Both the position numbers and the translations under genes were made by a program. This document shows positions 16,392 through 32,476 of a stretch of DNA of 64,000 nt, piece after piece (the first letter of the stretch is position 1; each line of letters begins with the position of its first letter). The stretch lies in the NCBI GenBank assembly GCA_016791045.1, contig JAEUNO010000030.1, forward strand, positions 62,001 to 126,000. The letters run 5' to 3'. Source of the DNA: Methyloversatilis sp. GTDB lineage: Bacteria; Pseudomonadota; Gammaproteobacteria; Burkholderiales; Rhodocyclaceae. The notes under the pieces were generated by a model that was not told the DNA's origin, made no database searches, and saw only the letters and a program-made list of their open reading frames with translations.

Positions 16392-17189
16392 ATGCCGCCC
16401 GCCCAACCTGTCCTGTTCCTGCACGCCAATGGCTACCCGGCCGGCGTGTACCGCCAGTTTCTCGCTGCACTGGCGCGCCACCACCCGGTCGGGGCGATCG
16501 ACGTGATCGCCGCCGCACACGGCCCCGGCCGTGGCTGGCGAAACCTGCTGACGCAGGTGCTGGCCCGGGTCGACGCGCTGCCGGATGAACCGCTCGCGCT
16601 GGTGGGGCATTCGATGGGGGGCTATCTGGCCGCCATGGCTGCCGCACGCCGGCCGACGCGCGTGATGCAGGTCGTTCTGATCGATGCGCCGCTGGTCGGC
16701 GGCTGGCGCGGGGCAGTGCTGACGGCATCACATGCCAGCGGCCTGTCGCGCAAGGTGGGTCCGGCGCCGATTGCGGCCCGCCGGCGCATGCATTGGACAT
16801 CGCGCGAAGACGCCCGGCGACACCTGGCCGACAAACCTTTCGTGCAGCGCTGGGCGCCCGGCGTGCTCGACGATTTCCTGGCCGCCGCACTGACCGATCA
16901 CCCGGATGGCGGGGTCACGCTGACCATTGCACGCGAAGCCGAGCGCGACATCTACGCCACGCTGGCGCACCGAGCGGCCCTGCGTGCCGTGCGCACGCTG
17001 CGCCGGCGCGGCACGCCCATCGGTTTCGTCGCCGGCAGTCAGTCGGAAGAACTGCGCCTCGCCGGCCGCGACGCCAACCGTGCCTTCTGGGGTGAGGGCT
17101 GGCGCGAGCTGGACACCGGCCATCTGGTACCGATGGAAGCGCCGCAAGCATGCGCCGCGGCGGTGCATGCGCTGCTCGGCGAACGTTGA
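16392..17189 (+). CDS. Alpha/beta hydrolase
   Basis: The 265-residue alpha/beta-hydrolase fold has an oxyanion loop in LFLHANGYPAG (residues about 8-18) and a nucleophile elbow GHSMGG with Ser near residue 74. A late His is present in DTGHLVP. There is no signal peptide, so it acts in the cytosol. The substrate is unknown: esterase, lipase-like and C-C hydrolase functions all fit. Its stop lies 69 bp from the 3' end of the converging multi-PAS gene. Confidence 0.85.
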   Translation: MPPAQPVLFLHANGYPAGVYRQFLAALARHHPVGAIDVIAAAHGPGRGWRNLLTQVLARVDALPDEPLALVGHSMGGYLAAMAAARRPTRVMQVVLIDAPLVGGWRGAVLTASHASGLSRKVGPAPIAARRRMHWTSREDARRHLADKPFVQRWAPGVLDDFLAAALTDHPDGGVTLTIAREAERDIYATLAHRAALRAVRTLRRRGTPIGFVAGSQSEELRLAGRDANRAFWGEGWRELDTGHLVPMEAPQACAAAVHALLGER

Positions 17190-17258
17190 ACCCGCGCCGT
17201 GTACTACGCCTTGGCGTGCGTGGGCATCTGCCCGGCGTATCCGACCGACCGTACGTCC

Positions 17259-19134
17259 TTATTCGTCGGCGAACTCGCAGTGCCCGGAACCCAGCTCGAC
17301 CGCCTGGGTCGCGGCGCGTCTTGCCGCTTCGAACATCGATTCGATGCCGATGTAGCGCGCGTCGCCCAGCGCGATGCCGGCCGCTGCGGCGATCACGACC
17401 TCGCTGTCGCCCACGCGCAGCGTCGCGGTCAGTTCCTGCATCAGGCGCGCCGCGAGTTTCGATACCGCCGGAATCAGTTCGTTGGAGCCAGCCAGTTCGC
17501 GCGCGGCCTGACCGGCCCGGAAGTCGGTCAGCAGCACCGCGAACTGATGCTTTTCCAGATAGCTCACCGCGGCACCCGGATAGCTGACCGGACGGAAGCG
17601 GCGCGCCACCTCGGCCAGCACCTGTTCGGACACTTCCTGGCTGTAATGTGGCACGAGATCTTCCATGCCGAACACATCGACCCACAGCAGTGCGAACGGC
17701 GCGCCACTGACCTGGAACTGGTGCAGCGTCCACGCCAGCAGCGCATCGAAGATGGGCCGGCTGGTCATGCCGGTGCGCGCTTCGAACCACATGCGGCGGC
17801 GGGCGCGCTCCTCGGCGCCGCGCCGCTCGCTGACGTCGGTGATGAAACCTTCGATCACCAGCAGTTCGCCCTGCGAAGAGAACACGCCGCGCCCCTGTTC
17901 CCATACCCACAGATAGACGCCGTTGACGTCGGCGATGCGGTAGGAAATCTGATACGGCTTGTGCTGCGCCAGATTGGCCTGCACCTGCGACCAGACGAAT
18001 TCGCGGTCTTCCGGGTGGATCAGGCTGCCGAAGGCCACGCGGCGGTTGTCGACCAGTTCCCAGGGCTCGTATCCGGTCAGGTCGACGCAGCCGTCGCTGA
18101 CGAATTCCATGGTCCAGTCCGGATCGTTGCGGCCGCGATACACCATGCCCGGCACGTCGGCGAGCAGCGTGTTCAGGTAGCGCCGGCTGGAGCCGAGCTC
18201 TTCGCTGCGGCGGCGCCGCGTGACTTCGGTCAGCGTGCCGACGACGCCGGCCAGATCGCCGTCGGGCAGGGTGCATGACTGTGCGCGCAGCATGACCCAG
18301 AACACATTGCCGCTGGCGGCCACCAGACGCACTTCGCTGACCAGCTGGTCGAGCTGGCCACTGGCCACTGGCCACCGACCGCAGCGACTTTTCCACCCCG
18401 TCGCGCTCCTCCGGGTGCACGGCCGCGCTCAGCAGGCGCCCGCGGCAGTCGGCGACGCTGCGGCCGGTCAGCCGCTCCCAGGCGCGATTCAGATAGGCAA
18501 TGCGGCCTTCGGTATCGGTCTTGAACAGCACCAGATCGATCTGGTCCAGCACCACCGGCATGTCATGCTCGCTGTCGTCGCGCGCCGGCACGGCCGCCGC
18601 ATCCGGGCTGAACTGGATCAGCAGGCTTCCGGGCACCGCCGGCAGCGGCGAAACGCTGGCGTGCAGCTTCACCGGCAGACCGGTCGCACTGACCATGCGC
18701 AGCATGCTGTCGGCGGCCGTCGGGGTGCTGCCGGCAGCGATCGCGTACAGCGAAGCGAAGCGGGCATGATCGACCGGATGCAGCAGATTGGTGAATGGCA
18801 GCCCGACCACTTCGTCGGCACGGCCGCGGTAGTCGAGCAGCGCCAGAAAAGCCTGGTTGGCGAAACTGATGGTCGGTCCTTCTATCGTGACCGAGGGCGA
18901 TGAAATGTTGTGGCACAGTTCACCCGCCCATTGCGTCTGTTGTGCAGTGGCATCGGGGCGCCGGCGCAGTGGCGCATCGGACCATGTCTGTCGCCGCAAC
19001 ACCAGCACCAGCAGCAGTCCGCCCAGTCCGACCGCGGCAGGCAGGCCGTAGGCCGCGCTGCCGCCGTGCCAGGTACCGACCACGGCAGCAAACATCAGGG
19101 CGAGCGTCCACGCGGAAAACAGATACAGGGCCAT
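17259..19134 (-). pseudogene. Multi-PAS signalling protein with degenerate GGDEF domain, split by a frameshift
   Basis: Two overlapping reading frames make one protein. The N-terminal frame (from 19134) encodes two transmembrane helices (residues about 4-46), a PAS domain (about 75-180) and the start of a second PAS. The C-terminal frame (to 17259) completes that PAS and adds a third (RYLNTLLADVPGMVYRG onward) and a GGDEF-like domain. The break is at a triple CTGGCCA repeat (18354-18374). Removing one 7-bp unit restores an uninterrupted 622-residue frame reading RSVASGQLDQLVSE. In the GGDEF-like domain the signature reads LEKHQF, so diguanylate cyclase activity is unlikely. As written, translation would run on in the wrong frame to position 16915. 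It is either phase-variable, recently mutated or a sequencing error. It is divergent from the histidine kinase gene, with start codons one base apart. Confidence 0.85.
18354..18374. repeat. Three tandem copies of CTGGCCA at the frameshift
   Basis: Three perfect 7-bp units lie inside the second PAS domain of the multi-PAS gene. Seven is not a multiple of three, so gain or loss of one unit switches the frame. Two units give an intact gene and three break it. Confidence 0.95.
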
Positions 19135-19135
19135 C

Positions 19136-20734
19136 GTGATTCGTTTCCTTTCAGGCGCCGGCAGGCGCTACCCGCTGTATACCGGATTGACGGCCATGCT
19201 GGCCGGCTGCGCGCTGTGCGCGGCGCTGGCCTTCTGGGGCAGTGTCGAAACGGAGCGGCAGTTTTCGCAGGTATTCGGCCGCATGGTCGCACTGTGTGCC
19301 GCGCCGACGGCGGCCGAGGCCGCGCTGTGCGAGGTGGTGGCCGGTGTCGAGCGTGCGTTGCTCGAACGGGTGGCCGTCATGCTGCTGCTGCAGGGGCTGT
19401 GCGTGCTCGCGATCGTCGTCGGTTGCGCGCTGATCGCGCACCGGGCGTATCGCCTGCTCGTCTGCCGCAGCGAGGCCGCACTGAGCCTGATGCCCGAAAG
19501 CAGCCGCGCGCGCGGGCGCGACGAGATCGAACGGCTGGTCGAAAGTCTGGCAGAACTGACGGCGCGCCAGGCCGGGCTCGAGGCGGAAGTGCGCTGGCGC
19601 CAGCAGGTCACGGCCGAACAGTTGCGGCGCAAGGCGCTGGAATTGCAGACGCTGCATCAGGTGGCGCGCACCTTCACCAACAGCGAAGTGTCGGCGTTCA
19701 GCCTGCTGGGCGGCCTTGCCCAACTCGAATCGGCGCTCGGTGCGCGCACCGTCGCGCTCAGTCTGGGTACCGTCGCGCGGCAGGCCCTGGGCGCTGACGC
19801 CGTACTGGCGACCCATGGCGAGCCGGCCATCCTTGCGCAGCTGGCCGGCCAGCCGGCGGCGCGCGAAATCACCGCGCGTGTCGTGCCGCCGGGTGCAACC
19901 GGGCCGACCTGTTCGCTGGTGCTGCCGGTATGCCGCGGCGATCTGGCGCTCGGCACGCTGGTGGCCGAATTTCCCGAGCATGCGCGGGTCGATGACCCGC
20001 AGGTCAAGCTGGCCGAAAGTTTCGCCCATCTCGCCGCGCTTGCGCTGTCCGGCGTCAGCCGCAGCCAGGAGGAAAGGCGGGTGGCATTGATGGAGGAACG
20101 CACGGCGATCGCCGGCGAACTGCACGATTCGCTGGCGCAGTCGCTGGCCTACATGAAGATCCAGGTGGCCCGGCTGCAGCGCGGTCTCGACCGCGAAAAG
20201 CACCCGGCCGATGTGGCGCAGGCGGCGCGCGAACTGCGCGAGGGGCTGTCGGCCGCCTACCGCGAGGTGCGCGACCTGATCGCAGCGTTCCGCGTGCGCA
20301 TGGGCCCCGGCGGGCTGCTGTCGTCGGTGCAGGCGACGGTCGACGAGTTCGCGCAGCGCAGCGGCCTCGACATCAGTTTCGTGCACGATCTGGGTCGCTG
20401 CCAGCTCGGCGTGAACGAGGAGTTCCATGTCATGCAGGTGATCCGCGAAGCGGTGTCGAACACGGTGCGTCACGCACGGGCCTACCATATCTGGATCAGC
20501 ATGCATTACGGTCCCGGCCATCTGCTCACCGCCATCGTGGATGATGACGGTCGCGGCCTGACCAATCCCTACGCAGAAAAGAACCATTACGGCCTGTCCA
20601 TCATGCGCGAGCGCGCCAGCTCGCTCGGTGGCGAGGTTTCGGTGGTCCACCGGCCGGGCGGCGGCACCCGGGTGCAGCTCGCCTTTGCGCCGCAGAAGCT
20701 GCCGGCCGACAATCTTTCCGAAGTGACGACATGA
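19136..20734 (+). CDS. NarX-type sensor histidine kinase
   Basis: This 532-residue inner-membrane kinase is the partner of the response regulator that follows. It has a short cytoplasmic N-terminus, TM1 (about 17-36), a small periplasmic loop of about 45 residues with two Cys, TM2 (about 80-100), a HAMP-like linker, a GAF-like region (about 190-315), then HisKA_3 with phospho-acceptor His330 in GELHDSLAQSL and an HATPase domain with DDDGRGL. This is the NarX/UhpB class. The periplasmic loop shows no NarX P-box, so nitrate is not a supported signal. The start is GTG, and the next in-frame ATG (19196) would cut into TM1. Its stop overlaps the regulator ATG by 4 nt. Confidence 0.9.
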   Translation: MIRFLSGAGRRYPLYTGLTAMLAGCALCAALAFWGSVETERQFSQVFGRMVALCAAPTAAEAALCEVVAGVERALLERVAVMLLLQGLCVLAIVVGCALIAHRAYRLLVCRSEAALSLMPESSRARGRDEIERLVESLAELTARQAGLEAEVRWRQQVTAEQLRRKALELQTLHQVARTFTNSEVSAFSLLGGLAQLESALGARTVALSLGTVARQALGADAVLATHGEPAILAQLAGQPAAREITARVVPPGATGPTCSLVLPVCRGDLALGTLVAEFPEHARVDDPQVKLAESFAHLAALALSGVSRSQEERRVALMEERTAIAGELHDSLAQSLAYMKIQVARLQRGLDREKHPADVAQAARELREGLSAAYREVRDLIAAFRVRMGPGGLLSSVQATVDEFAQRSGLDISFVHDLGRCQLGVNEEFHVMQVIREAVSNTVRHARAYHIWISMHYGPGHLLTAIVDDDGRGLTNPYAEKNHYGLSIMRERASSLGGEVSVVHRPGGGTRVQLAFAPQKLPADNLSEVTT

Positions 20735-21381
20735 GCATACGCATACTGCTGATCGACGATCATCCGCTGTTCCGCAAGGGCGTGGCCCAGCTGGTGCGTG
20801 CCGATGACGAACTCGAACTGGCCGGCGAAGCCAGCGACGGTGTGAGCGGTCTCGCGCTGGCCGCCGAAACCGACCCCGACCTGATCCTGATCGACCTCAA
20901 CATGAAGTCGGTGAATGGCATCGAAACACTGCGCCGGCTCAAGGCAGCAGGCGTGCGCGGCCGCTGCGTCATGCTGACCGTGTCCGACGATGAACGCGAC
21001 GTGCTGGATGCGATGAAGGCCGGCGCTGACGGTTATCTGCTGAAGGACATGGAACCGGAAGAGCTGTGCCAGCGCATCAAGCAGTCGGTGGCCGGCACGA
21101 TGGTGCTCGACGGCAGTGTCGCCGGCCTGCTCGCCCATGCGTTGAACGCGCCGCCCGCGGCAACCCACACCGATCTCACCGAACGCGAGCGCGAAATTCT
21201 CGGCCTGCTGTCGGACGGGCGCAGCAACAAGGAAATTGCACGTGTGCTCGGCATTTCCGATGCGACGGTGAAGGTGCATATCAAGCACGTGCTCAGCAAG
21301 CTCAACATGAAAAGCCGCCTCGAGGCGGCCGTGTGGGCGCTGCAGAACCCGCAGTTCCGGCGCGCCGCCGCCCACGACTGA
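20731..21381 (+). CDS. NarL-family response regulator
   Basis: The 216 residues comprise a receiver domain with phospho-acceptor Asp55 (LILIDLNM) and acidic pocket IDDH, then a LuxR-type HTH (about residues 145-210). It is close to NarL throughout: GADGYLLKDMEPE is nearly the NarL sequence, and the recognition helix ATVKVHIKHVLSKL keeps the Lys, Val and Lys that in NarL contact the TACYYMT heptamer. Three 7-2-7 sites of that type lie upstream of the methylated-amine units that start 2.6 kb downstream, so this regulator is a good candidate for their control (inference). It is translationally coupled to the kinase and ends in front of a strong hairpin. Confidence 0.92.
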   Translation: MSIRILLIDDHPLFRKGVAQLVRADDELELAGEASDGVSGLALAAETDPDLILIDLNMKSVNGIETLRRLKAAGVRGRCVMLTVSDDERDVLDAMKAGADGYLLKDMEPEELCQRIKQSVAGTMVLDGSVAGLLAHALNAPPAATHTDLTEREREILGLLSDGRSNKEIARVLGISDATVKVHIKHVLSKLNMKSRLEAAVWALQNPQFRRAAAHD

Positions 21382-21491: not shown

Positions 21492-23192
21492 TCAATACAC
21501 GGCCAGGCTGTGCGACACCACGACCACCACGACACCGGCGGCCAGCGTCACGTAGGGCAGCATCCCGGCGCGCTTGCCGCCTGACGGCAGCTGGTCGTTC
21601 AGGTGCATGTCCTCGATCATCGCATCCGGGAACTGCCCCTTGTCCTGCACGTAATGGCGATACAGGAATACCGGGATGATCAGCGACGCGAACACCAGAC
21701 CGGCCGTCAGCGTGCCGGCGCCGTAGATGTCGGCACCCAGACCCATCAGCGCGAGATTGACGAACGCAAGTACCACGCCGATGCCCAGGATGATGTTCGG
21801 TGCCTTGAACGGACGCTCCCAGTCCGGGCGGTCGATGCGATGGATCCAGCCGGAGTTCAGGTTCAGGAAGTTGAAGATGATGTAGCCGACGTTCGAGCAG
21901 GCCAGCACGAACACGTAGTCCGACAGCATCAGCAGGATCAGGTTGAACCCGAGGTCGGTCCACATCGCACGCGTCGGCGCGCCATGTTCATTGACGTGCG
22001 ACAGGTAGCGCGGCAGCCAGCCATCGACCGACGCCTGGTACAGCGTGCGCGAAGAACCCGCCATCGACGTCATGATCGACAGCAGCACCGCCAGCACCAG
22101 CATGACCACCAGCACGTTCGCCACCACTTCGCCGCCGCCCACCATGTGCGACATCACACTGGCCACGCCCATGCCGCTGTACACGTCGGGCGCGAGCATG
22201 CCGCTGTAGACCGCCGGCGAGGACACCGTACCATCCGCCTCGACCACCGGCGGCGTCACGACCTCACCCAGACCGAGGTGACCCTGGAAGGCCAGCGGCA
22301 CCAGCGTGAACACGACGATGCACAGCAGACCGGAGAACAGGATCGCCTTGAAGGTGTCCTTCTTCGGGTCCTTGAACTCGCGGGTGTAACAGACCGCGGT
22401 CTCGAAGCCGTAGGTCGACCACGCGGCGATGAACAGGCCGCCGGCCATCAGCGTGATGCCCGCCATGTTCCATGATCCATCGACCACCAGACCGTTTTCC
22501 CACGCGATGGGCACCATCGGCGAGAAATGGGTGGACGGCATGTCGCCGGACAACAGCGGCACCAGCGCGATCAGCATCAGCGGGATCAGCGCCGTGATGC
22601 CGAGCACCATGGTCGTGCGCGCAGAGCGCAGGATGCCGCCGTGCTGGATGCCGAACACCGCCAGCAGCAGCACGACACCGACCAGGAAGGTCGCGTTGAT
22701 GCGCAGTTCGAGCCCGGACTTGATGAATCCGAGATCGACCAGCGTCAGCTGCCAGGTGTTGATCGCCGCATCGGCCGGGAACAGCGCGCCAAGAATGTAG
22801 CCCGCCGCCAGCCCGGAACCGATGGCCAGCACCGGCGACCAGGCGAACCAGTTGCACCACACCGATACCGGCGCAATGATCTTGCTGTAACGCACCCAGG
22901 CCACTGCACCGTACACCGACGCACCGCCTGACTTGTGCGGAAACAGGCCGGCGATTTCGGCATAGGTGAAGGCCTGGATGAAGCCGAAGCCGATCGACAG
23001 CGCCCATATCATCCACGATGGCTTGCCTACCGTTGCCGCGATGGCGCCGATCGAAAACAGCACCAGCGCCGGCACGCCGCTGGCCACCCAGAACGCACCG
23101 GTCCAGTCGATCTTCCGGTGCAGTGAAGCACTTTCGGCACGGCTGGCCGATCGTACCGGTGCAGCTCCGATCACATCCGCATTGCTGCTCAT
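21492..23192 (-). CDS. APC-family permease of the methylated-amine cluster
   Basis: This inner-membrane transporter of 566 residues has about 12-13 hydrophobic helices and the APC-superfamily start pattern (FWVASGVPALVLFSIGAIAA, then FTYAEIAGLFPHKSGGASVYG). It follows the porin gene by 50 bp on the same strand, so both are probably transcribed from the promoter at 24.25 kb that carries the shared 7-2-7 element. That position suggests uptake of trimethylamine, TMAO, dimethylamine or a product, although most family members carry amino acids. No tmoXWV-type ABC transporter is in the window. The start at 23192 has AAAGGGGAT upstream. Substrate is inferred from context only. Confidence 0.88.
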   Translation of the reverse strand: MSSNADVIGAAPVRSASRAESASLHRKIDWTGAFWVASGVPALVLFSIGAIAATVGKPSWMIWALSIGFGFIQAFTYAEIAGLFPHKSGGASVYGAVAWVRYSKIIAPVSVWCNWFAWSPVLAIGSGLAAGYILGALFPADAAINTWQLTLVDLGFIKSGLELRINATFLVGVVLLLAVFGIQHGGILRSARTTMVLGITALIPLMLIALVPLLSGDMPSTHFSPMVPIAWENGLVVDGSWNMAGITLMAGGLFIAAWSTYGFETAVCYTREFKDPKKDTFKAILFSGLLCIVVFTLVPLAFQGHLGLGEVVTPPVVEADGTVSSPAVYSGMLAPDVYSGMGVASVMSHMVGGGEVVANVLVVMLVLAVLLSIMTSMAGSSRTLYQASVDGWLPRYLSHVNEHGAPTRAMWTDLGFNLILLMLSDYVFVLACSNVGYIIFNFLNLNSGWIHRIDRPDWERPFKAPNIILGIGVVLAFVNLALMGLGADIYGAGTLTAGLVFASLIIPVFLYRHYVQDKGQFPDAMIEDMHLNDQLPSGGKRAGMLPYVTLAAGVVVVVVSHSLAVY

Positions 23193-23242: not shown

Positions 23243-24034
23243 TCAGAATGTGCGCTTGACGTACAGCAGCCACTTGCTGTCGCCGGTGTCCTTGCAGCGC
23301 GTTGCCGCGCCGCCGACGTTGTCGCAGATGGTGTAGAAGTTCTTGTCGGCATTGGTGTCGACATAGGCCACGGCGGCCTGCCAGCCCCCGTCGAAGTTCT
23401 TCGTGATGCCGACCTTCCAGTCGGTGAAGTCGTAGTCGTCGTAGTTCTTCACCTTCTGATGACCGACGTGCAGGTTGGCGATCCAGCCCGGCATGAACTC
23501 ATAGTTCGCGTTCGCTTCCAGATAGTCGGAGCCGTCCGAGTCGGCGCCGAACGCCTTTTCGCTGAAGCCGAAGTAGTCGGTGACGGCGTAGGAATACTTC
23601 AGCTGGATGAACTTCCAGGTCACCGCGGCATTCAGTTCCAGCGTGTTCAGGCTTTCACCGGACGGATCGTACTTGCCGCCCGGGAAGATGAACTGCAGGA
23701 AGCCGACATCGAACAGGAAGTCGCCCACCGTCTTCGCATAGCCGCCATACACGTCGATCTCGCCGGTCGCATTCGACAGCGCCAGATCGCTGACATTGGT
23801 CCCCCACACACCGAGGTAGAGCCCGCTCTCGTGCGCGAGATCGAAGCCGCCCTGCACGGCCGGCTTTTCCTGCGTATAGCTGATGCCGCGGAAGATGTAC
23901 TGCGAGAACACGCCCACGTTGGCGCTGATCGTGTAGGACGGCGCCGGCGCCTCTTCCGCCTGTGCCGCGAGCGGTGCGACGAGCAGGCCCAGCAGCAGCG
24001 CGCTCAGGGTCTTGTGACGAAAACGTTCATGCAT
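23243..24034 (-). CDS. TorF-family outer-membrane porin
   Basis: The 263-residue protein has a signal peptide (residues 1-26, ending AQAEE) and a mature part of alternating amphipathic strands, ending in a terminal Phe (YVKRTF) as expected for outer-membrane insertion by BAM. The N-terminal mature sequence SANVGVFSQYIFRGISYTQ is the hallmark of the TIGR02001/TorF putative porin family. The family name comes from a TorR (TMAO)-regulated gene of Shewanella, which agrees with the TMA/TMAO neighbours here. It is the first gene of a probable porin-permease operon, with AGGAGAG before the start. Substrate specificity is not readable. Confidence 0.88.
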   Translation of the reverse strand: MHERFRHKTLSALLLGLLVAPLAAQAEEAPAPSYTISANVGVFSQYIFRGISYTQEKPAVQGGFDLAHESGLYLGVWGTNVSDLALSNATGEIDVYGGYAKTVGDFLFDVGFLQFIFPGGKYDPSGESLNTLELNAAVTWKFIQLKYSYAVTDYFGFSEKAFGADSDGSDYLEANANYEFMPGWIANLHVGHQKVKNYDDYDFTDWKVGITKNFDGGWQAAVAYVDTNADKNFYTICDNVGGAATRCKDTGDSKWLLYVKRTF

Positions 24035-24251
24035 GGCGCTCTCCTGTGATCCACGGTTGTCGGGCGATCTGTACGACGGATGACGGGCCCAACGTCGTCC
24101 GCCTGTTCTGCGTCACGACAGCCGGCGTCGAATCCGGAGGCCGTGCATTGATGCTCGGGAATGAGGGTGCTGCGGGGTGACGCACCGGCCGCGCCAGTGC
24201 GCCCGGAGGTCGTGATGTGGGACCGATTATTGAAACGTCGCTGCCGTGCGA

Positions 24252-24285
24252 ACAATTCTCACAAGGGATTACCCACTAATGGGTA
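24252..24285 (-). promoter_or_regulatory. Composite operator A: NarL-type 7-2-7 site plus TGAGAATTGT box
   Basis: On the minus strand, facing the porin-permease operon, TACCCAT-TA-GTGGGTA (24270-24285) is followed after 8 bp by TGAGAATTGT (24252-24261). One half-site matches TACYYMT fully and the other has one mismatch. The downstream box is embedded in an imperfect dyad GTGAGAA-N3-TTCGCAC. The porin start is about 235 bp away. Confidence 0.75.
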
Positions 24286-24436
24286 AGGCGCGACGGCAGC
24301 AAGAGATTCGCGACGCTGCTCGCCTGCCGCAGGAGCGGACCCGGTCCGCGATACGCGCCTTGATCTCGTGACGTCAGCCGGGTTGGCGCACCCATTCGCC
24401 TCCGCGGCACGCTCAATGGCGATGTGTGCCGGCGCC

Positions 24437-24470
24437 TACCCCCTTATGGGTAACTCCTCTTGAGAATTGT
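24437..24470 (+). promoter_or_regulatory. Composite operator B: NarL-type 7-2-7 site plus TGAGAATTGT box
   Basis: TACCCCC-TT-ATGGGTA (24437-24452) is followed after 8 bp by TGAGAATTGT (24461-24470). It faces tmm, whose start is about 135 bp downstream of the box. The second half-site (TACCCAT on the other strand) is a full TACYYMT match. Confidence 0.75.
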
Positions 24471-24604
24471 CCGCACCGGTCGCGCTTCGCATCATTCGCC
24501 GCACCTGACGGTCGGCGCGAAGCCGGACGTCCGGCGGGCGACCCGGCGGATGCGGCGGCGTCGCAGCCGTATCCCGAACGGAACTGACAAGAGGAATCCA
24601 CAGC

Positions 24605-25966
24605 ATGAAAAAGCGTGTTGCGATCATCGGTGCCGGCCCCAGCGGGCTGGCCCAGCTGCGTGCCTTCCAGTCTGCTGCGGCCAAGGGCGCAGACATTCCC
24701 GAACTGGTGTGTTTCGAGAAGCAGTCGGACTGGGGTGGCATGTGGAACTACACCTGGCGTACCGGGCTGGACGAGCACGGCGAGCCGGTGCACGGCAGCA
24801 TGTACCGCTATCTGTGGTCGAACGGCCCGAAGGAATGTCTGGAGTTCGCCGACTACACCTTCGACGAACACTTCGGCCGTCCGATGGGTTCCTACCCGCC
24901 GCGCGAAGTGCTGTGGGACTACATCAAGGGTCGAGTCGAGAAGGCCGGCGTGCGCAAGCACATCCGCTTCAACACCTCGGTGCGCAACGTGACCTGGGAC
25001 GACGCGACCCGGCTGTTCACGGTCACCGTGCACAACTACGAGCAGGACCTCACCTACTCGGAAACCTTCGATTTCGTGGTGGTGGCCAGCGGCCATTTCT
25101 CGACGCCCAACGTGCCGTACTTTCCGGGTTTCGAAACCTTCGGCGGTCGCGTGCTGCATGCCCACGACTTCCGCGATGCACTCGAATTCAAGGGCAAGGA
25201 CGTGCTCATCGTCGGCGCCAGCTACTCGGCGGAGGACATCGGCTCGCAGTGCTACAAGTACGGTGCACGCTCCATCACCAGCTGTTACCGCACCAACCCG
25301 ATGGGCTACAAGTGGCCCGACAACTGGGACGAAAAGCCGCAGCTGCTGCGTGTCGACGGCCACATGGCCCATTTCGCCGACGGCAGCAGCAAGCACATCG
25401 ACGCAGTCATCCTGTGCACCGGCTACAAGCACCACTTCCCCTTCCTGCCGGAAGAGCTGCGCCTGAAGACCGACAACCGCCTGTGGCCGCTGAACCTCTA
25501 CAAGGGCGTGTTCTGGGAAGAGAACCCGGCGCTGATCTATCTCGGCATGCAGGACCAGTGGTACAGCTTCAACATGTTCGACGCCCAGGCCTGGTACGCA
25601 CGCGACGTCATCCTCGGCCGCATTCTGCTGCCGTCGCCGGAAGCCATGCACGCCGAAGACATGGCCTGGCGCGAGGAGGAGCTGACGCTGGAAACCGCGC
25701 AGGAAATGTTCGAACTCCAGGGCAAGTACATCGGCCAGCTGATCGACGCGACCGACTACCCGAGCTTCGACATCGCCGCGGTCAACAAGACCTTCCTCGA
25801 GTGGAAGAACGACAAGTACGAGGACATCATGGGCTACCGGAACAAGTGCTACGCTTCCCTGATGACCGGCACCATGGCGACGCCGCACCACACGTCATGG
25901 CTCGACGCGCTCGACGATTCGCTCGAGGCCTACCTGAACGAACCGGCCGACCAGGAACACGCCTGA
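24605..25966 (+). CDS. tmm: Trimethylamine monooxygenase
   Basis: This cytosolic flavin-containing monooxygenase oxidises trimethylamine to TMAO with FAD, NADPH and O2. The 453 residues match bacterial Tmm in length. The FAD loop is GAGPSGLAQ (residues about 9-17), the FMO identifying motif is [11 protein letters not shown] (about 178-188) and the NADPH loop is [11 protein letters not shown] (about 203-213). The Tmm-like [12 protein letters not shown] follows the FAD site. Its neighbours settle the function: tdm lies 112 bp downstream and the dimethylamine monooxygenase operon follows. The start at 24605 is preceded by AAGAGGAATC. Expression is probably driven from composite operator B. Confidence 0.95.
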
Positions 25967-26078
25967 CCTGCTGCAGCGTGCGGGCGGCATCAACGCAGAT
26001 GAGCCCGCATCCGATGAACCCCGTTGCGGTCCGTCGCGCCCCTGCAGCACGGCGCCGGACTGCGGGTGACCGCATCTG

Positions 26079-28361
26079 ATGAACACGATAGTCGAACCTT
26101 CTTTCAACCCGTCGATCGCCGCCCGTTCGTGTCCGGCGCATGTCCGTCATGTCGCACCCGGCGGTGCCACGGTCGCGTTCGACCTGGCAGCCGGCGACCG
26201 GGTCTCGTTGATCGATCCCGAAGGCCTGCAGCCCGGCGACTTCTACCTTGCCGGACCGGCCGGACTCGCGGCCGCCATGCTGCCGGGCGTGGCGCTCGAC
26301 GCGGTCGGTGCCGCCGGCACACCGGCTGCTGCGCTGATGCACGGCGCGCCCGCCGGCTGGCGCCTGCTGCGCGCCCGCCTGTTCGGCGCCGACAGCCTGC
26401 CCGGCGCGCGGTGCGATTTCACCGCACCGGGTGCCCTGCGCTGCCTGCTGCACGCGCCGGGTACCGACATGGCACCCGACGCGCAGGACGCGCCGACCGA
26501 ACTGATCGCCGACATCCTCCGCGCCGAGCCGCTCAGCGGTCAGGCGCCGCCGCCGCTGGCCGAACCGGTGCTCGACCTGCGTGTCGCGGCCGGCACGGCG
26601 CACGCCTACCGCGTGAAGGCCGGCGACTACATCCAGGTGATCGACGTCGATGGCCGGCAGTGCTCCGACTTCCTCGCCTTCGACGCGGCCGCGCTGGCGC
26701 GCGGTCAGGAATACGACCTCGACCCGACCACCACGCGCACGCTGACCGGCACCGCGAATCCCGGTCCGGGCCTGCTGTCGAAGTACTACGACGAGCGCCA
26801 GGTGGCACTGGTCGAAGTGGTGCGCGATACGGTCGGCCGGCACGATACCTTCATGCTCGCCTGCAGCGCCAAGTACTACGACGACATGGGCTACCCCGGT
26901 CACGCCAACTGCAGCGACAACTTCAACAACGCGCTCGAACCGCTGGGTATCGCTCGCCGGGCCGGCTGGCCGGCGATCAACTTCTTCTACAACACCCTCG
27001 TCAATCACGACGACAGCATCGGTCTCGACGAGCCGTGGTCGCGTGCTGGCGATTACGTGCTGATGCGCGCACTGACCGATCTGGTCTGCGCCTCGTCGTC
27101 CTGCCCCGATGACATCGATCCGGCCAATGGTTGGTATCCGACCGACATCCACGTGCGGGTGTATGACGCCTCGAACAACTTTTCCAAAGGGATCGCACAC
27201 CGCATGACGCCCGACGCCACCCCCAGACTGACGCGCGAATCCGGCTTCCACGCCCGCACCTCCGCGCTCACCCGCAACATGGTCGAGTACCGCGGCTTCT
27301 GGCTGCAGACTTCGTTCGCTGCCAACGGCCCGATCGACGAGTACTGGGCCTGTCGCGAGCGCGCCGCGATGATCGATCTGTCGGCGCTGCGCAAGTTCGA
27401 AATCACCGGCCCGGACGCCGAAGCGCTGCTGCAGCGGGCCACCACGCGCAACATCCGCAAGCTGGCGGTCGGTCAGATCGTCTATGCCGCGCTGTGCCAT
27501 GAGCACGGCGGCATGATCGACGACTGCACCGTGTTCCGCCTGGCGCAGAACAACTTCCGCCTGGTGTGCGGCGACGACTGGTGCGGCGTGTGGCTGCGCG
27601 AACTGGCGGCGCAGCACGGCCTGCGCGCCTGGGTGCGTTCATCCACCGACCAGTTGCACAACCTGTCGGTGCAGGGACCGAAGTCGCGCGACATCCTGCG
27701 CGACATCGTGGTCACGCCGCCGACCAACGCTTCGATGGACGAACTGAAGTGGTTCCGCTTCTCGGTCGGCAAGATCGACGGCTGCCCGGTCGTCGTGTCG
27801 CGCAGCGGCTACACCGGCGAACTGGGCTACGAGGTGTGGTGCCATCCCAAGCACGCCGTGCAGGTGTGGGACGCGGTGGCCCGCGCCGGCGAGCCCCACG
27901 GCATCGCGCCGATGGGTCTGGCTGCGCTCGACATGCTGCGCATCGAAGCCGGGCTGATGTTCGCCGAGTACGACTTCTGCGACCAGACCGATCCGTTCGA
28001 AGCCGGCATCGGCTTCGCCGTGGCGGCCGACAAGGAGGACGACTACGTCGGCAAGGCCGCACTGGAACGCCGCAAGGCCCACCCGGCGCGCGTCATGGTC
28101 GGTCTGGACATCGATGGCAGCGAGCTGGTGGCGCACGGCGACCCGATCTACAGCGGTCGCGCACAGATCGGCCAGATCACCAGCACGACCCGTTCGCCCA
28201 TCCTCGGCAAGACGATCGCCTTGGCGCGGCTGGACGTGTCGGCTGCCGAACCGGGCGCCACGGTCGAGATCGGCAAGCTCGACGGCCACCAGAAACGCAT
28301 CCAGGCGAAGCAGGTGCGTTTCTCGCACTACGACCCGGAGAAGGCGCGCGTTCGGGCGTGA
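26079..28361 (+). CDS. tdm: TMAO demethylase (trimethylamine-oxide aldolase)
   Basis: Tdm splits TMAO into dimethylamine and formaldehyde, and its C-terminal domain can pass the one-carbon unit to tetrahydrofolate. The 760-residue protein has the two-part Tdm layout: an N-terminal DUF1989 metal domain (to about residue 370) and a C-terminal GcvT-like folate domain (about 400-755). In the first part, cysteines in PGHANCSDNFNN (about residue 276) and DLVCASSSCPDD (about 336-342) match the region of the zinc ligands. In the second part, GcvT features such as SRSGYTGELGYEVW and the MLRIEAGLMF stretch are clear. It acts directly after Tmm. A terminator follows at 28464, so tmm-tdm form one unit. 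Confidence 0.95.
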   Translation: MNTIVEPSFNPSIAARSCPAHVRHVAPGGATVAFDLAAGDRVSLIDPEGLQPGDFYLAGPAGLAAAMLPGVALDAVGAAGTPAAALMHGAPAGWRLLRARLFGADSLPGARCDFTAPGALRCLLHAPGTDMAPDAQDAPTELIADILRAEPLSGQAPPPLAEPVLDLRVAAGTAHAYRVKAGDYIQVIDVDGRQCSDFLAFDAAALARGQEYDLDPTTTRTLTGTANPGPGLLSKYYDERQVALVEVVRDTVGRHDTFMLACSAKYYDDMGYPGHANCSDNFNNALEPLGIARRAGWPAINFFYNTLVNHDDSIGLDEPWSRAGDYVLMRALTDLVCASSSCPDDIDPANGWYPTDIHVRVYDASNNFSKGIAHRMTPDATPRLTRESGFHARTSALTRNMVEYRGFWLQTSFAANGPIDEYWACRERAAMIDLSALRKFEITGPDAEALLQRATTRNIRKLAVGQIVYAALCHEHGGMIDDCTVFRLAQNNFRLVCGDDWCGVWLRELAAQHGLRAWVRSSTDQLHNLSVQGPKSRDILRDIVVTPPTNASMDELKWFRFSVGKIDGCPVVVSRSGYTGELGYEVWCHPKHAVQVWDAVARAGEPHGIAPMGLAALDMLRIEAGLMFAEYDFCDQTDPFEAGIGFAVAADKEDDYVGKAALERRKAHPARVMVGLDIDGSELVAHGDPIYSGRAQIGQITSTTRSPILGKTIALARLDVSAAEPGATVEIGKLDGHQKRIQAKQVRFSHYDPEKARVRA

Positions 28362-28367
28362 CGACAG

Positions 28368-28402
28368 ATTCAAGATTCAAGATGCAAGATGCAAGATGCA
28401 AG
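28368..28402. repeat. Five tandem heptamers, ATTCAAG x2 then ATGCAAG x3
   Basis: The array starts six bases after the tdm stop codon and contains two sub-variants that differ by one base. It is non-coding and AT-richer than its surroundings. Its role is unknown; the unit count may vary between strains. Confidence 0.9.
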
Positions 28403-28463
28403 GGGCGCGGTGGAGAGTGGGTCGCGCTGCTTGACCTGAGCTGGTTCAGGGAGCTGCAGGGAC

Positions 28464-28504
28464 AACGGGGATGCGGGCATCGTGCCTGCGTCCCCGTTTT
28501 CTTT
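28464..28504 (+). terminator. Intrinsic terminator of tmm-tdm
   Basis: ACGGGGATGCGGGCA pairs with TGCCTGCGTCCCCGT across a 3-nt loop, with wobble pairs, and is followed by TTTTCTTT. It separates tmm-tdm from the dmm operon. Confidence 0.85.
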
Positions 28505-28559
28505 GGCCGTGCGGTGCAGGGGGGGGCTCGACGTGCTTCGTTCGGGCAAGGGCTGCTTC

Positions 28560-28593
28560 TACCTCCAAGTAGGTAACCCCTCGTGAGAATTGT
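28560..28593 (+). promoter_or_regulatory. Composite operator C: NarL-type 7-2-7 site plus TGAGAATTGT box
   Basis: TACCTCC-AA-GTAGGTA (28560-28575) is followed after 8 bp by TGAGAATTGT (28584-28593), 81 bp before the dmmD start. The half-sites vary relative to copies A and B, but the changes are compensatory (CCC to CCT in one arm, GGG to AGG in the other), so the dyad is kept. Confidence 0.75.
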
Positions 28594-28674
28594 CCCGCAC
28601 CCACCCGGACAACAGAATCAATCCCGGATCGACCGCGTTGCGCGGCGACATGTCAGACAGGGAGACACCGGGAA

Positions 28675-29793
28675 ATGCAGAGGAATTCGATTCTGAACGA
28701 GCGGCACCGCCAGCTCGGCTCCAAGCTCGACGGCGATACGTGGAACTTCATGCCCATCCCGTGGAGCTACAGCAGCTGTCCGCACGACGAAGTCGTCGCC
28801 ACGCGCACGCGCGCCGGGCTGTACGACGTGTCGGCGCTGAACATCGTCAACGTGACCGGGCAGGACGCCGAAGCCGTCATCGACCGCCTGGTCGCCATCG
28901 ACGTCACGAAGCTGAAGCCGGGCACGGCCCGTCTCGGCGGCGAAGTGAACGAAGCCGGCGCACTGGTCGACGACATCATGATCATCCGCGACGCTGCCGA
29001 CCGGTTCCGCATTTCGCACGGCAGCGGCGCCACGCCGAAGACGCTGGCCGCACTGGCTGCCGGCAGGAGTGTGACCATCACCTCCGATCAGGACGTGCAC
29101 ATCCTGTCGCTGCAGGGCCCGGTTTCGCTCGACGTGCTGAAGGCGCACACGCCGGCCGACCTGGCTGAGCTGCCGTACTTCAACCACGTCGAAACCACGC
29201 TGTTCGGCAAGAAGGTGACGCTGGGGCGTGGCGGCTACTCCGGCGAGCGCGGCTACGAGGTGTACTGCAGCGCGGCCGACGCCGTGTTCCTGTGGGACAC
29301 GATTCTTGAAGCGGGCAAGCCGAAGGGTGTTGTCCCGTGTTCGTGGACCGCGCTCGATCTGACGCGCGTCGAAGGCGCGTTGCTGTTCTTCCCGTTCGAA
29401 ATGCCGGAAGGCGATACCACGCCGTGGGAAGTGAACATGGACTGGGCGGTCGACCTTGACAAGGCGGGCGACTACATCGGCAAGGCTGCGGTGCTGCACC
29501 TGAAGGGGCGCGAGCGCGTGAAGCAGGCCGGCATGACGGTGCTGCACCACGCAGCGGTCGAAGCCGGTGCGAAGGTCTATGACGGCGACACCGAAGTCGG
29601 CGTGGTCACGTCGGCTTCTTACAGCCGCCTGCTGATGCAGTCGCTGGCCATGGTGCATCTCAAGCCGGCGAAGTCGTCGATCGGCACCCGTCTGACGATC
29701 CGCAGCGAGGCCGGCAATCTGGCGGCGCTGGTGGTGCCGACGCCGTTCTACGATCCGCTGCGCCAGCGCACCCATCCCGACAGGAAGCGCTGA
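28675..29793 (+). CDS. dmmD: DmmD, GcvT-like folate protein of dimethylamine oxidation
   Basis: This cytosolic protein of 372 residues with the aminomethyltransferase (GcvT) fold is thought to transfer the formaldehyde released by dimethylamine demethylation to tetrahydrofolate. Family features include TRAGLYDVSALNIVNVTG near the N-terminus, ARLGGEVNEAGALVDDIMI and the substrate-pocket stretch GGYSGERGYEVYCS. It is the first gene of dmmDABC. It differs from the glycine-cleavage GcvT by context: no gcvH or gcvP is near. The start has GGGAGACACCGGGAA upstream. It is probably expressed from operator C. Confidence 0.9.
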   Translation: MQRNSILNERHRQLGSKLDGDTWNFMPIPWSYSSCPHDEVVATRTRAGLYDVSALNIVNVTGQDAEAVIDRLVAIDVTKLKPGTARLGGEVNEAGALVDDIMIIRDAADRFRISHGSGATPKTLAALAAGRSVTITSDQDVHILSLQGPVSLDVLKAHTPADLAELPYFNHVETTLFGKKVTLGRGGYSGERGYEVYCSAADAVFLWDTILEAGKPKGVVPCSWTALDLTRVEGALLFFPFEMPEGDTTPWEVNMDWAVDLDKAGDYIGKAAVLHLKGRERVKQAGMTVLHHAAVEAGAKVYDGDTEVGVVTSASYSRLLMQSLAMVHLKPAKSSIGTRLTIRSEAGNLAALVVPTPFYDPLRQRTHPDRKR

Positions 29794-29872
29794 TCGCTCA
29801 ACGCCGCCGACCCGCTGCGTGCTCCTTAGGCCGCGGGCCGGACCGCTCCCTCCCCTTGCCACGAGACGCCGC

Positions 29873-30466
29873 ATGTCCACCCCTGCCATCAAAAGCCAGC
29901 CGGTCTACACCGCGCTCGAATGGGACCGCACCGGCACCCATCACGTGCTGTTCGTCGCAGCCGATGAGGCGGCGCTGGCGAGCCGACTGTGGGCGCAACC
30001 GCCCGCCGGCCCGATCACGCTCATCCTCCAGCACGCCGATGGCGCGCCGATGACCAGCTGGCTGGCCGAGCGGCCAGCCAGCGTTCACACCATCGCCGCC
30101 GCGACGCTGGAGCTTGCGTTGAAAGCGCTGGGCGACACGCTGCGCGCCGCGCAGATGGGCACCCGGCTGTATCTGGTCGGACCGGAAGACGCCATCTGGC
30201 AGGCGGCGCGCCTGGCTGACGGCCTGGGCATGAGCCGCGACGAAATGCGCCTGATGCAGGCGGGCACGCGCGCCCGGCCGGTGTTCTGCGTGCATTGCCG
30301 CACCGTCACGCGCGGCGTGCACACCCATATCGTGCCGTGCAGCGGCTGTGGGCGTGCGCTGTTCGTACGCGACCATTTTTCGCGTCGTCTGGGCGCCTAC
30401 ATGGGCTTCCAGATCGACGCCGAAGCGCCGGGCGACATCCCGGCGGCGGAGGTGATCTACCCATGA
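29873..30466 (+). CDS. dmmA: Dimethylamine monooxygenase subunit DmmA
   Basis: The 197-residue protein matches the DmmA family in size and layout. An alpha/beta N-terminal domain of about 125 residues (HVLFVAADEAALASRLW, then TRLYLVGPEDAIWQ) is followed by a zinc-ribbon-like C-terminus with CVHC and CSGC pairs (residues about 141-144 and 159-162) before RRLGAYMGFQIDAEAPG. DmmA is one of the three subunits required for dimethylamine oxidation to methylamine. The stop overlaps the dmmB start by 4 nt, indicating coupled translation. Confidence 0.9.
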   Translation: MSTPAIKSQPVYTALEWDRTGTHHVLFVAADEAALASRLWAQPPAGPITLILQHADGAPMTSWLAERPASVHTIAAATLELALKALGDTLRAAQMGTRLYLVGPEDAIWQAARLADGLGMSRDEMRLMQAGTRARPVFCVHCRTVTRGVHTHIVPCSGCGRALFVRDHFSRRLGAYMGFQIDAEAPGDIPAAEVIYP

Positions 30467-31422
30467 GCCACGCATCCCTGAACGTCGAAATCGGTCGCAT
30501 CCGCGACCTGGCGCCCGGCATCCGGGAGTTCAGTCTGCGGCGCAGCGACGGCGCCGATTTCCCGGTCTTCTCCGGCGGCAGCCATACCGTGCTGTCACTG
30601 CCGCTGGGCGATCGCCTGCACCGCAACCCGTATTCGCTGCTGGGCGACCCGTCGGTGCGTGACACCTGGCGCATCGCGGTGCGCCTGCAGGAGACGTCGC
30701 GCGGCGGCTCGCGCTGGCTGCACGAAGCGGCGCGCGAAGGCATGCGTCTCGACATTTCGGCACCGGTCAATCTGTTCGCGCTGAACCGCACGGGTCGGCG
30801 CCACATCCTGGTCGCCGGCGGCATCGGCATCACGCCGATACTTTCGCAGGCGCGCGAACTGGCGCGCCTGGGCGCCGATTTCGAAGTGCATTACGCCTAC
30901 CGCGCGCCGGAGTTCGGCGTGTTTGCCGACGAACTCGAAGCGCTGGCGCCCGGCCGCATCCACCATTACGTGCAGTCGCGCCGAGAACAGATCGAATTCG
31001 GCTCGCTGCTGGCCGGCCGCCCGCTCGGCACCCACTTCTATATCTGCGGCCCGGCCGGCATGGTCGCAGCCAGCCTGAATGCCGGCAAGTCGCTGGGCTG
31101 GCCCGACAGCCATCTGCACAGCGAACAGTTCCTCGCGCCGAGCGGCGGCGAACCGTTCGACGTGAAGCTCGCGCTCAGCGGCCACCGCTTCAGCGTGCCG
31201 AGCGACCTGTCGCTGCTCGAAGCGATCGAACAGCAGGGCGTCGACGCGCCCTATCTGTGTCGCGGCGGCGCCTGCGGCCAGTGCGAACTGGAGGTGCTCG
31301 GCGCCGACAGCGAGCTGATCCATCACGACCTGTATCTGAGCGCCGACGAGCGCGCGTCGGGCACGAAGATCATGCCCTGCGTGTCGCGCCTGAAGGGCGG
31401 CTGCCTGACCCTGAACCTGTGA
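30463..31422 (+). CDS. dmmB: Dimethylamine monooxygenase reductase subunit DmmB
   Basis: This 319-residue phthalate-dioxygenase-reductase-type protein passes electrons from NAD(P)H to the heme subunit. An N-terminal ferredoxin-reductase domain has the flavin motif RNPYSLLG (residues about 44-51) and the nucleotide-binding GGIGITPILSQA (about 115-126). The C-terminal plant-type 2Fe-2S domain carries CRGGACGQCELEV plus a distal Cys (IMPCVSR). The order FNR-NAD-2Fe2S is that of the VanB/PDR group. It lies between DmmA and DmmC. Confidence 0.93.
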   Translation: MSHASLNVEIGRIRDLAPGIREFSLRRSDGADFPVFSGGSHTVLSLPLGDRLHRNPYSLLGDPSVRDTWRIAVRLQETSRGGSRWLHEAAREGMRLDISAPVNLFALNRTGRRHILVAGGIGITPILSQARELARLGADFEVHYAYRAPEFGVFADELEALAPGRIHHYVQSRREQIEFGSLLAGRPLGTHFYICGPAGMVAASLNAGKSLGWPDSHLHSEQFLAPSGGEPFDVKLALSGHRFSVPSDLSLLEAIEQQGVDAPYLCRGGACGQCELEVLGADSELIHHDLYLSADERASGTKIMPCVSRLKGGCLTLNL

Positions 31423-31432
31423 GGACGACGAC

Positions 31433-32476
31433 ATGACCCTAGCCTTCAAGCCGGACGAAACCTTCCGCGACGACTACACCTATCGCAACTCGCCGGCCGC
31501 CATCCGCCGCTTCCCCTTTCCCTTCCATCAGGACCAGTACATGTACTCGGTCAACATGGAGCCGCACGCGGGCGGGCCGGCCGGCTCGGTGTACGAGCAC
31601 GCGTTCGACATCGACGAGCACTACATCGCCGAAATGCGCGACCGCGCCATCACGCTGGAGCGCGACCCCGGCCGCTGCGTGTCGCTGCCGCACATGATGG
31701 ACGCCGAGTGGGACACGCTCGAACTGCTGATGGAATCGATGGCGCGCGACTACCCTGATCTGTTCGTGCTGAACAAGGACGGCGAGCGCTGGCACTGGGT
31801 GAACAAACCGCTGGGCATCGACCAGTCCTTCACCTTCGGCGACGCCGCCACCTTGCCGTGCCCGCCGTTCGAATACATCACGCGCCAGACCCAGGGCGAT
31901 TTCGTCATCATGGATCAGCGCGACAACGACCTGTTCGCCGACGCCGGCATGATCACGTCGCAGGCCGACTGGTCGCTTACCTTCGACGTCGGCATGAGCT
32001 TCATGGAATGGCATGGCCCGGTGCCGCTGGCGCATGAGCTGGGCGTGTTCGAGCGCGCACTCAAGTACCTGCTGATGCTGCAGCAGGGCCGCCCGGTGCG
32101 CCGCCTGAACTGGACCATGACGATCAATCCGCGCCTCGACACCGCGCCCGAAACCTATCCCGAATGGGGACAGGACCGCGCCAGCGTCACGCCGGACAAT
32201 GTCGGCGCCAAGGTGCATCTGCGGGTGGAACTGCAGACCCTGTTCCGTCTGCCGCGCAGCAACGGCATGCTGTTCTCGATCCGCGGCTACCTCGCCAGCA
32301 TGGAAGAACTGGCGACCTACCCGCGCTGGGCCAAGCGCCTGAACCGCGTGCTCGGCTCGCTGCCGAACGAACTGGCCGAATACAAGGGCCTGGTGCGCTA
32401 CAGCCAGACCACACTCGACTGGCTGGCCCGCCACGACGACGGCGCCCCGCTCGCGGTGGGCACGCAGCCGGAATAG
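31433..32476 (+). CDS. dmmC: Dimethylamine monooxygenase heme subunit DmmC
   Basis: This 347-residue DUF3445 protein, the heme-dependent oxidative N-demethylase family, should hold the catalytic site that demethylates dimethylamine to methylamine and formaldehyde. Recognisable stretches are LFVLNKDGERWHWVN, ITRQTQGDFVIMDQRD, LTFDVGMSFMEWHGPVP and the C-terminal VELQTLFRLPRSNGMLFSIR. It closes the dmmDABC operon with GAGGACG before its start. No methylamine-oxidising genes (gmaS, mgs, mgd or mauAB) follow, so methylamine use must be encoded elsewhere. Confidence 0.93.
   Translation: MTLAFKPDETFRDDYTYRNSPAAIRRFPFPFHQDQYMYSVNMEPHAGGPAGSVYEHAFDIDEHYIAEMRDRAITLERDPGRCVSLPHMMDAEWDTLELLMESMARDYPDLFVLNKDGERWHWVNKPLGIDQSFTFGDAATLPCPPFEYITRQTQGDFVIMDQRDNDLFADAGMITSQADWSLTFDVGMSFMEWHGPVPLAHELGVFERALKYLLMLQQGRPVRRLNWTMTINPRLDTAPETYPEWGQDRASVTPDNVGAKVHLRVELQTLFRLPRSNGMLFSIRGYLASMEELATYPRWAKRLNRVLGSLPNELAEYKGLVRYSQTTLDWLARHDDGAPLAVGTQPE

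Follow-up and report, generated by a model that had tools for sequence, protein, structure and literature searches.

We analysed a 64,000-nucleotide stretch of Methyloversatilis sp. DNA (contig JAEUNO010000030.1, positions 62,001 to 126,000; hereafter the window), in which three inverted repeats (dyads) of the NarL type precede genes for the uptake and breakdown of methylated amines. It is likely that the NarL-type response regulator encoded at 20731 uses these dyads as its operators; it would activate uptake, the trimethylamine genes tmm-tdm and the dimethylamine (dmm) genes together. An earlier interpretation, made from the letters alone (the sequence-only reading), is supported by these results, to which we added a corrected view of the TGAGAATTGT tail that follows each dyad, a PAS partner, a second regulator lineage and wider targets.

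The three dyads are confirmed, letter for letter (Table 1). They read TACCCAT-TA-GTGGGTA before the porin and permease genes, TACCCCC-TT-ATGGGTA before tmm-tdm and TACCTCC-AA-GTAGGTA before dmmD. The NarL heptamer consensus is TACYYMT. As described, the heptamers are close to this consensus in a 7-2-7 arrangement, with one, one and two departures from TACYYMT-N2-AKRRGTA across the three sites, and the dmm copy does carry matched arm changes (T at arm position 5 opposite A; 6 of 7 positions pair between the arms). E. coli NarL operators are likewise inverted heptamers with a 2-bp gap, and several dyads nearly equal TACCCCTAAAGGGGTA, an engineered high-affinity NarL site (PMC4549865).

The sites are concentrated in this cluster. 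Our own assembly measures 3.54 Mb in 47 contigs and is 92% complete. In it we counted ten places with TACC-N8-GGTA, three of which fall within this 4.3 kb, against 31 for the reversed pattern, our control. The other seven places give an expectation of 0.0086 per 4.3 kb (Poisson P ~1e-7). A whole-genome search for the 34-bp element (dyad plus TGAGAATTGT tail), as the sequence-only reading had proposed, returned three exact copies, all in the cluster, with none at one or two mismatches and one poor match at three; the reversed control gave none. A looser form of the element returned the same three at zero mismatches, one place at two and 28 at three, which is the control level. When we searched for a stricter palindrome with up to three mismatches, only two of the three dyads in the window were found, a result equalled by 6 of 100 shuffles. 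The dyad alone is thus unremarkable at that looseness, whereas the dyad with its tail is remarkable. Nor does the element stand upstream of many unrelated genes: the own-genome copies are all here, and a scan of 199 genomes of the family found it in six members of the genus only, with one asymmetric one-mismatch match among the other 193.

Within Methyloversatilis, the element was present in 11 of 13 genomes. It is conserved in relatives, as had been expected: ten of the 11 carry it upstream of tmm, of the porin gene (the orthologue of element 1) and of dmmD, and the eleventh upstream of dmmD and a trimethylamine dehydrogenase (TMADH) gene. A regulator orthologue (at least 88% identity) was found in 10 of the 13 genomes, all among the element carriers, and the two genomes lacking the element had no regulator orthologue, Tmm or DmmC at E 1e-40. 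In ungapped alignments of four or five diverged genus genomes, mean identity was 33-38% over the 60 bp upstream, 78-82% in the dyad, 49-60% in the spacer and 100% in TGAGAATTG. The -10 block was 100% identical for tmm and the porin gene (four genomes) and 71% identical on average for dmmD (five genomes).

These identities bear on whether the three promoters are recent duplicates whose likeness comes from copying and not from selection, a reading that would be compatible with shared control. In its favour, a 34-bp likeness runs through dyad, spacer and TGAGAATTGT, and some species have the segment between the divergent promoters inverted. However, the likeness between relatives ends at the functional blocks, with spacer and upstream sequence diverged as given above; moreover, other families show this layout in different bases, and it also stands before other genes, such as that for TMADH. 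Recent duplication is therefore extremely unlikely to explain the pattern.

Two natural experiments argue for one shared regulator, because in them the sites are exchanged between enzymes and between promoters. Genome G070 has no close tmm, and its operators lie upstream of dmmD and, divergently, of a gene for a 731-residue protein that matches TMADH over its whole length (1510 bits); judged by this match, the operator serves a different enzyme for the same substrate, trimethylamine. In G586, the dyad-to-dyad segment between tmm and the porin gene is inverted relative to G182 (L062 14437-14590 versus L246 12658-12811; 93.5% over 155 columns), and in the non-inverted sense the two segments share short matching patches only. 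The tmm dyad of one species is thus the porin dyad of another. The dyads of G587 are arranged as in G586.

The sequence-only reading had placed TGAGAATTGT 8 bp after the dyads. The spacing is correct, but the tail is not a separate box, as it overlaps the probable -35 element. At all 42 genus sites (11 genomes), a hexamer matching TATAAT at four or five of six positions lies 17-18 bp past the hexamer that opens with the TTG of GAATTG, its first base being number 54 or 55 counted from the dyad; the TTG of TGAGAATTGT would probably be that of the -35 element (TTGTYC). We also considered TGAGAATTGT as a -10 element, given its GAGAAT lookalike, and ruled this out by the TATAAT-like hexamer at each of the 42 sites. 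If the transcript starts seven bases after the -10 element, the dyad would be centred near -57.5. For comparison, single NarL sites at -44.5, -66.5 and -77.5 activate derivatives of the E. coli ogt promoter, where one upstream 7-2-7 site is enough for activation (PMC9314961), so activation from a site upstream of the -35 element is plausible. By eye, a weaker second dyad of the form CTC-N2-GAG is visible at many genus sites, some 16 bp downstream of the first and near -41.5; we make no claim for it.

Another idea is that a special sigma factor, or another activator acting on TGAGAATTG, recognises the conserved block, with the dyad secondary. Within the genus, TGAGAATTG is indeed kept more strictly than the dyad. 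Outside it, however, the TGAGAATTG block varies while the dyad, the spacing and ATTG stay, and the -10-like hexamer stands at sigma70 distance throughout the genus sites. We consider such a factor very unlikely.

The protein encoded at 20731 is a NarL-type regulator, as had been claimed. It scored 278.9 bits against the NCBIfam NarL equivalog (cut-off, 250) and retains K188, V189 and K192, which we take to be the DNA-recognition residues of NarL (numbering checked on E. coli NarL). Its nearest solved structure is E. coli NarL (210 bits; the next scored 130), with 108 of 209 aligned residues identical (52%). The recognition positions read K-V-K in all 12 rows of regulator lineage A (one gene being counted twice, as L105 and L125) and K, V or I, and K or R in all 32 rows of lineage B.

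Could this be an ordinary nitrate-responsive NarL, with the methylated-amine genes under nitrate or nitrite control? The NarL score and the identity to the E. coli protein fit that idea. By contrast, the adjacent kinase fell far below the cut-offs of the curated models (NarQ, 210.4 against 553; NarX, 194.1 against 578), and the NarQ and NarX matches begin only at kinase residues 283 and 118, outside the N-terminal part. None of its three Pfam domains is nitrate-sensing. Its N-terminal loop, between two presumed membrane helices, is short and holds two cysteines in 9 of 9 kinases of the lineage examined. By the model comparisons, the sensory part of the kinase at 19136 is not that of a nitrate sensor. 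In the genus, moreover, the regulator occurs together with methylated-amine genes, and in two other families it lies next to them. Nitrate control is quite unlikely on this evidence.

Table 1. Features of the window and of related loci (positions without a locus name are those of the window)
Feature	Position	Strand	Match or sequence	Role or remark
PAS-type gene	16915..19134	-		divergent from kinase; frameshifted relative to G005; candidate sensory partner
Sensor histidine kinase	19136..20734	+	weak GAF, HisKA_3, HATPase	presumed partner of regulator
NarL-type response regulator	20731..21381	+	Response_reg, GerE	proposed to bind the three dyads
Permease	21492..23192	-	NCBIfam trimethylamine N-oxide permease, 857.9 bits (cut-off 690)	
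TorF-family putative porin (Gcw_chp)	23243..24034	-	Pfam, NCBIfam	
Probable core promoter 1	24226..24255	-	-35 TTGTTC (24255-24250), -10 AATAAT (24231-24226)	porin
Element 1	24252..24285	-	dyad 24285-24270 = TACCCATTAGTGGGTA, then ATCCCTTG-TGAGAATTGT	porin and permease
Element 2	24437..24470	+	dyad 24437-24452 = TACCCCCTTATGGGTA, then ACTCCTCT-TGAGAATTGT	tmm-tdm
Probable core promoter 2	24467..24495	+	-35 TTGTCC (24467-24472), N17, -10 CATCAT (24490-24495)	tmm
tmm, trimethylamine monooxygenase	24605..25966	+	834 bits (cut-off 675)	
tdm, trimethylamine N-oxide demethylase	26079..28361	+	1235 bits (cut-off 1100)	
Element 3	28560..28593	+	dyad 28560-28575 = TACCTCCAAGTAGGTA, then ACCCCTCG-TGAGAATTGT	dmmD and following genes
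Probable core promoter 3	28590..28618	+	-35 TTGTCC (28590-28595), N17, -10 CAGAAT (28613-28618)	dmmD
dmmD-like GcvT-family protein	28675..29793	+	Pfam	
dmmA, dimethylamine monooxygenase subunit	29819..30466	+	DmmA-family NCBIfam match	
dmmB-like reductase subunit	30295..31422	+		open reading frame taken from the earliest start available; the real start is probably more internal
dmmC, HODM-type alpha subunit	31433..32476	+	Pfam; no NCBIfam match	
Usp-gene variant elements	L063 8863, L247 1381, L249 1882, L254 2185, L255 1297			
Candidate small RNA	L062 17634-17883	+		own operator-type promoter
Candidate small RNA	L064 17490-17742	+		own operator-type promoter
Candidate small RNA	L246 9613-9360	-		own operator-type promoter
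Candidate small RNA	L248 13277-13530	+		own operator-type promoter
Candidate small RNA, G070	L069 near 7500 and 9710	-		two copies behind permease copies

We also looked outside the genus. Of 399 genomes of the order, 8, our own among them, hold a strong Tmm match (E 1e-40 or better). In two other families (four genomes and one), a regulator 67-75% identical to that of the window lies with a kinase and a PAS gene near dmm genes. There, TACYY-N6-RRGTA-N13-ATTG gave 12 distinct sites in 25 upstream regions (six genomes, two other families; the L074 tmm region is left out of this count), and no alternative spacing between dyad and ATTG exceeded three regions. Another Tmm-bearing genome, G370, had no regulator match at E 1e-30, and the part of it that we examined held no strict palindrome.

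We extended the comparison to named tmm loci, the best 80 of at least 584 relatives. Kinase and regulator lay within the locus in 31 of these, nine more had a regulator-like match and 40 had none. For the layout count we compared the 40 regulator-bearing loci with 39 others, setting aside the Methyloversatilis locus L129. The spacing-13 layout was present in 15 of the 40 and in none of the 39 (shuffle mean 0.5, maximum 3 in 30 runs); spacing 14 was seen in 5 of the 40, and either spacing in 18. A stricter dyad count gave 10 of 40 regulator-bearing loci (11 sites against a shuffle expectation of 0.12) and 1 of 40 others (expectation 0.04), the single match without a neighbouring regulator being Methyloversatilis itself (L129). 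The same layout occurs in part of the Gammaproteobacteria and Burkholderiaceae.

A tree of the regulators places the window protein in one group (99/99) with the proteins of the two other families, with E. coli NarL and with eight paralogues of the family. Outside this group fall the proteins from Pseudomonas, Burkholderiaceae, Oceanospirillaceae and Acinetobacter. The tree has several long branches and an arbitrary root, so the order of events is not readable from it. The simplest reading of these sequences would be one promoter code served by two NarL-type lineages, through replacement or separate recruitment. Two side observations concern related regulators in the family. Another genome of the family (L216 1988-9359) has, together with kinase and PAS matches, a regulator of 52% identity next to a Tdm-like (60%) and a GcvT-like match; this may be one more methylamine-type cluster that lacks tmm. 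Dyads of the form TACYY-N6-RRGTA are also present a few kb or less from more distant NarL-like regulators in the family (L209 4339, L212 10519 and L217 5978), so this form may go with the type of regulator and not with methylated amines alone.

The gene divergent from the kinase points to a further component. Its intact relatives (in G005 and one f2 genome) match PAS and, weakly, GGDEF. A PAS homologue (E 1e-8) was present in 39 of the 80 named tmm loci, namely all 31 kinase-regulator loci and eight loci with an HTH-PAS fusion; we did not find one in the 40 loci without a regulator match or in L146, a 7-kb contig. In the 31 loci the regulator is at most 7 kb from tmm, and the PAS and regulator matches are at most 171 bp apart on the same strand. 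The PAS protein has 244-275 residues in the 6 of 31 loci whose open reading frame was examined, too short for the GGDEF part. In eight Pseudomonas-type tmm loci (L133, L138, L140, L141, L143, L144, L145 and L165), this fusion, in which the HTH is of the NarL type, replaces kinase and regulator (Pfam run on four of the eight), and its PAS part shares 54 of 109 residues with the cassette PAS in the one pair compared. Because of this fusion and the constant linkage, we regard PAS as the foremost candidate for sensing, and the PAS protein beside the kinase is probably a sensory or relay component.

Several observations weigh against control by this regulator through a single, shared layout. The regulator is at least 95 kb from the operators in 5 of the 10 genus genomes that bear an orthologue, and G587, a draft genome, has the sites, Tmm and DmmC with no regulator orthologue detected. 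A regulator relative 50-58% identical is present, without the element, in 22 of the 193 other family genomes. Among the named loci, 22 of the 40 with a regulator have no site at spacing 13 or 14 at the score threshold applied, including one entire group of fluorescent Pseudomonas, and other spacings gave that score in 0 to 6 of the 40 and 0 to 6 of the 39 (in the latter, six at 16 and five at 19). Common descent of the regulator is not established, since the window and Pseudomonas proteins lie in different parts of the tree. The frameshift in the PAS gene of the window may mean that the gene is dispensable here, or that the assembly is wrong or holds a sequencing error. Finally, dyad changes in both arms exceeded shuffles (8 of 500 as high) over 19 of 28 distinct dyads, nine whose outer arm is imperfect (TTA at the end or TAAC at the beginning) having been left out; we give this count little weight because the choice favours symmetry and the rows are related.

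Some of these points would fit use of the dyads by another DNA-binding protein, a NarL-type paralogue or an unrelated one, with the regulator at 20731 having other targets. The non-adjacent regulators and G587 favour this, and more distant paralogues (33-44% identity) do exist in these genomes. On the other side, G589 has a 43% paralogue but no element, and TACC-N8-GGTA is what one would expect of a protein with the NarL recognition residues, which both regulator lineages retain. Such a substitute is unlikely in our judgement.

For the favoured reading, control by the regulator at 20731, we infer a mechanism that goes beyond the sites, their conservation, the layout, the protein family and the linkage. 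A phosphorylated dimer of this protein would occupy the 7-2-7 site, whose centre would lie some 57 bp ahead of the start of transcription. From there it would recruit RNA polymerase to a weak promoter of the sigma70 type (-35 TTGTYC, 17-18 bp, -10 such as CATCAT). Uptake through the porin and the trimethylamine N-oxide permease, tmm-tdm and the dmm genes would then be switched on jointly. The PAS protein would detect the signal and relay it via the kinase; the inducer would be a methylated amine or a breakdown product. A broader picture seems to us as likely to be right as wrong: a so far undescribed PAS cassette for trimethylamine would act through kinase and NarL-type regulator or, in some Pseudomonas, directly as HTH-PAS, on the code TACYY-N6-RRGTA-N13-ATTG. 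This code would have survived the exchange of the regulator for another NarL-type lineage and of Tmm for TMADH, and some species would have added a stress-protein gene and a small RNA with CUCCUCC loops.

The targets in the window take their names from curated models. By these names, the operators stand before the genes for uptake and for the steps that lead, in what we take to be the order of this pathway, from trimethylamine through dimethylamine. The name dmmD follows position and what we take to be the nomenclature; dmmB and dmmC are likewise presumed names. After the dmm genes lies an open reading frame for a 947-residue protein with PATR and PEP-CTERM matches (32647-35490, plus strand).

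In congeners the targets extend further. In five genus genomes, a variant element, with the left arm and most of the tail kept and the right arm changed, precedes a Usp-family gene (identified by Pfam in one; the other four are 78-100% identical to it). In four genus genomes, such a variant lies upstream of a conserved stretch with no convincing open reading frame that ends in a terminator hairpin. This candidate small RNA is located behind the permease gene, with AGCUCCUCCU in the terminator loop and CUCUCCUCA upstream (true spacing in the sequence pattern, 8-9). One of its sequences folded better than 200 of 200 shuffles (z -3.98), and Rfam, run on one genome, gave no family at gathering score near it, with a single match far below. 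Neither the Usp nor the small-RNA element was found in our own genome at up to two mismatches. Because of these sites, the regulon is slightly wider than methylated amines in some congeners. The CUCCUCC loops of the candidate presumably resemble those of the CcsR small RNAs of Rhodobacter. CcsR small RNAs target flhR (PMC8307010).

Trimethylamine, the smell of rotting fish, is a widespread source of nitrogen and carbon. The output domain of FlhR, a regulator of one-carbon (C1) genes, is of the LuxR type. Among 20 open reading frames of the window scanned with Pfam (4 of the 20 without any match), we found no AraC- or GntR-type regulator. In the marine Ruegeria pomeroyi, a 2026 paper describes control of tmm, tdm and downstream methylated-amine genes by TmaR (AraC type) and TmoR (GntR type): the target genes are the same as here, but the regulators are one-component proteins of other families, and a word search of the main text found neither LuxR nor two-component (PMC13390433). 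The FlhS/FlhR two-component system of Paracoccus denitrificans is formaldehyde-responsive and controls C1 genes (mxa, mau including methylamine dehydrogenase, and formaldehyde oxidation); it differs in that, as far as that account goes, no trimethylamine or dimethylamine genes are named among its targets (PMC8879981). Pseudomonas CrbS/CrbR pairs a LuxR-family regulator with an inverted repeat (the ACTU motif) just upstream of the promoter; the repeat is TACTACCATCGTCGAAT at acs, from -52 to -36, the targets are acetate genes and the kinase has a solute-symporter domain (PMC5715377). By letter comparison, our three dyads are not this motif, as arms and arm distance differ. Among the closest known systems, E. 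coli NarX/NarQ-NarL shares the response regulator family, the recognition helix and the 7-2-7 inverted heptamers, whereas here the N-terminal part of the kinase is unrelated, a PAS partner is present and the targets are methylated-amine genes instead of genes of nitrate respiration. The statement that NarL-type control of trimethylamine or dimethylamine catabolism has not been described agreed with open-literature titles and abstract openings, which held none; subscription papers were mostly outside that search, so absence from print is not shown.

The curated model names this regulator NarL, yet the neighbouring kinase and the targets are not those of nitrate respiration, which calls for caution in automatic annotation. 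Beside the control known from Ruegeria, the comparisons point to a second one for trimethylamine use, unrelated to the first and widely distributed among Beta- and Gammaproteobacteria. Given a promoter code of enough precision for target prediction and a named candidate sensor domain, what switches these genes on outside the roseobacters, a question long open, becomes directly testable.

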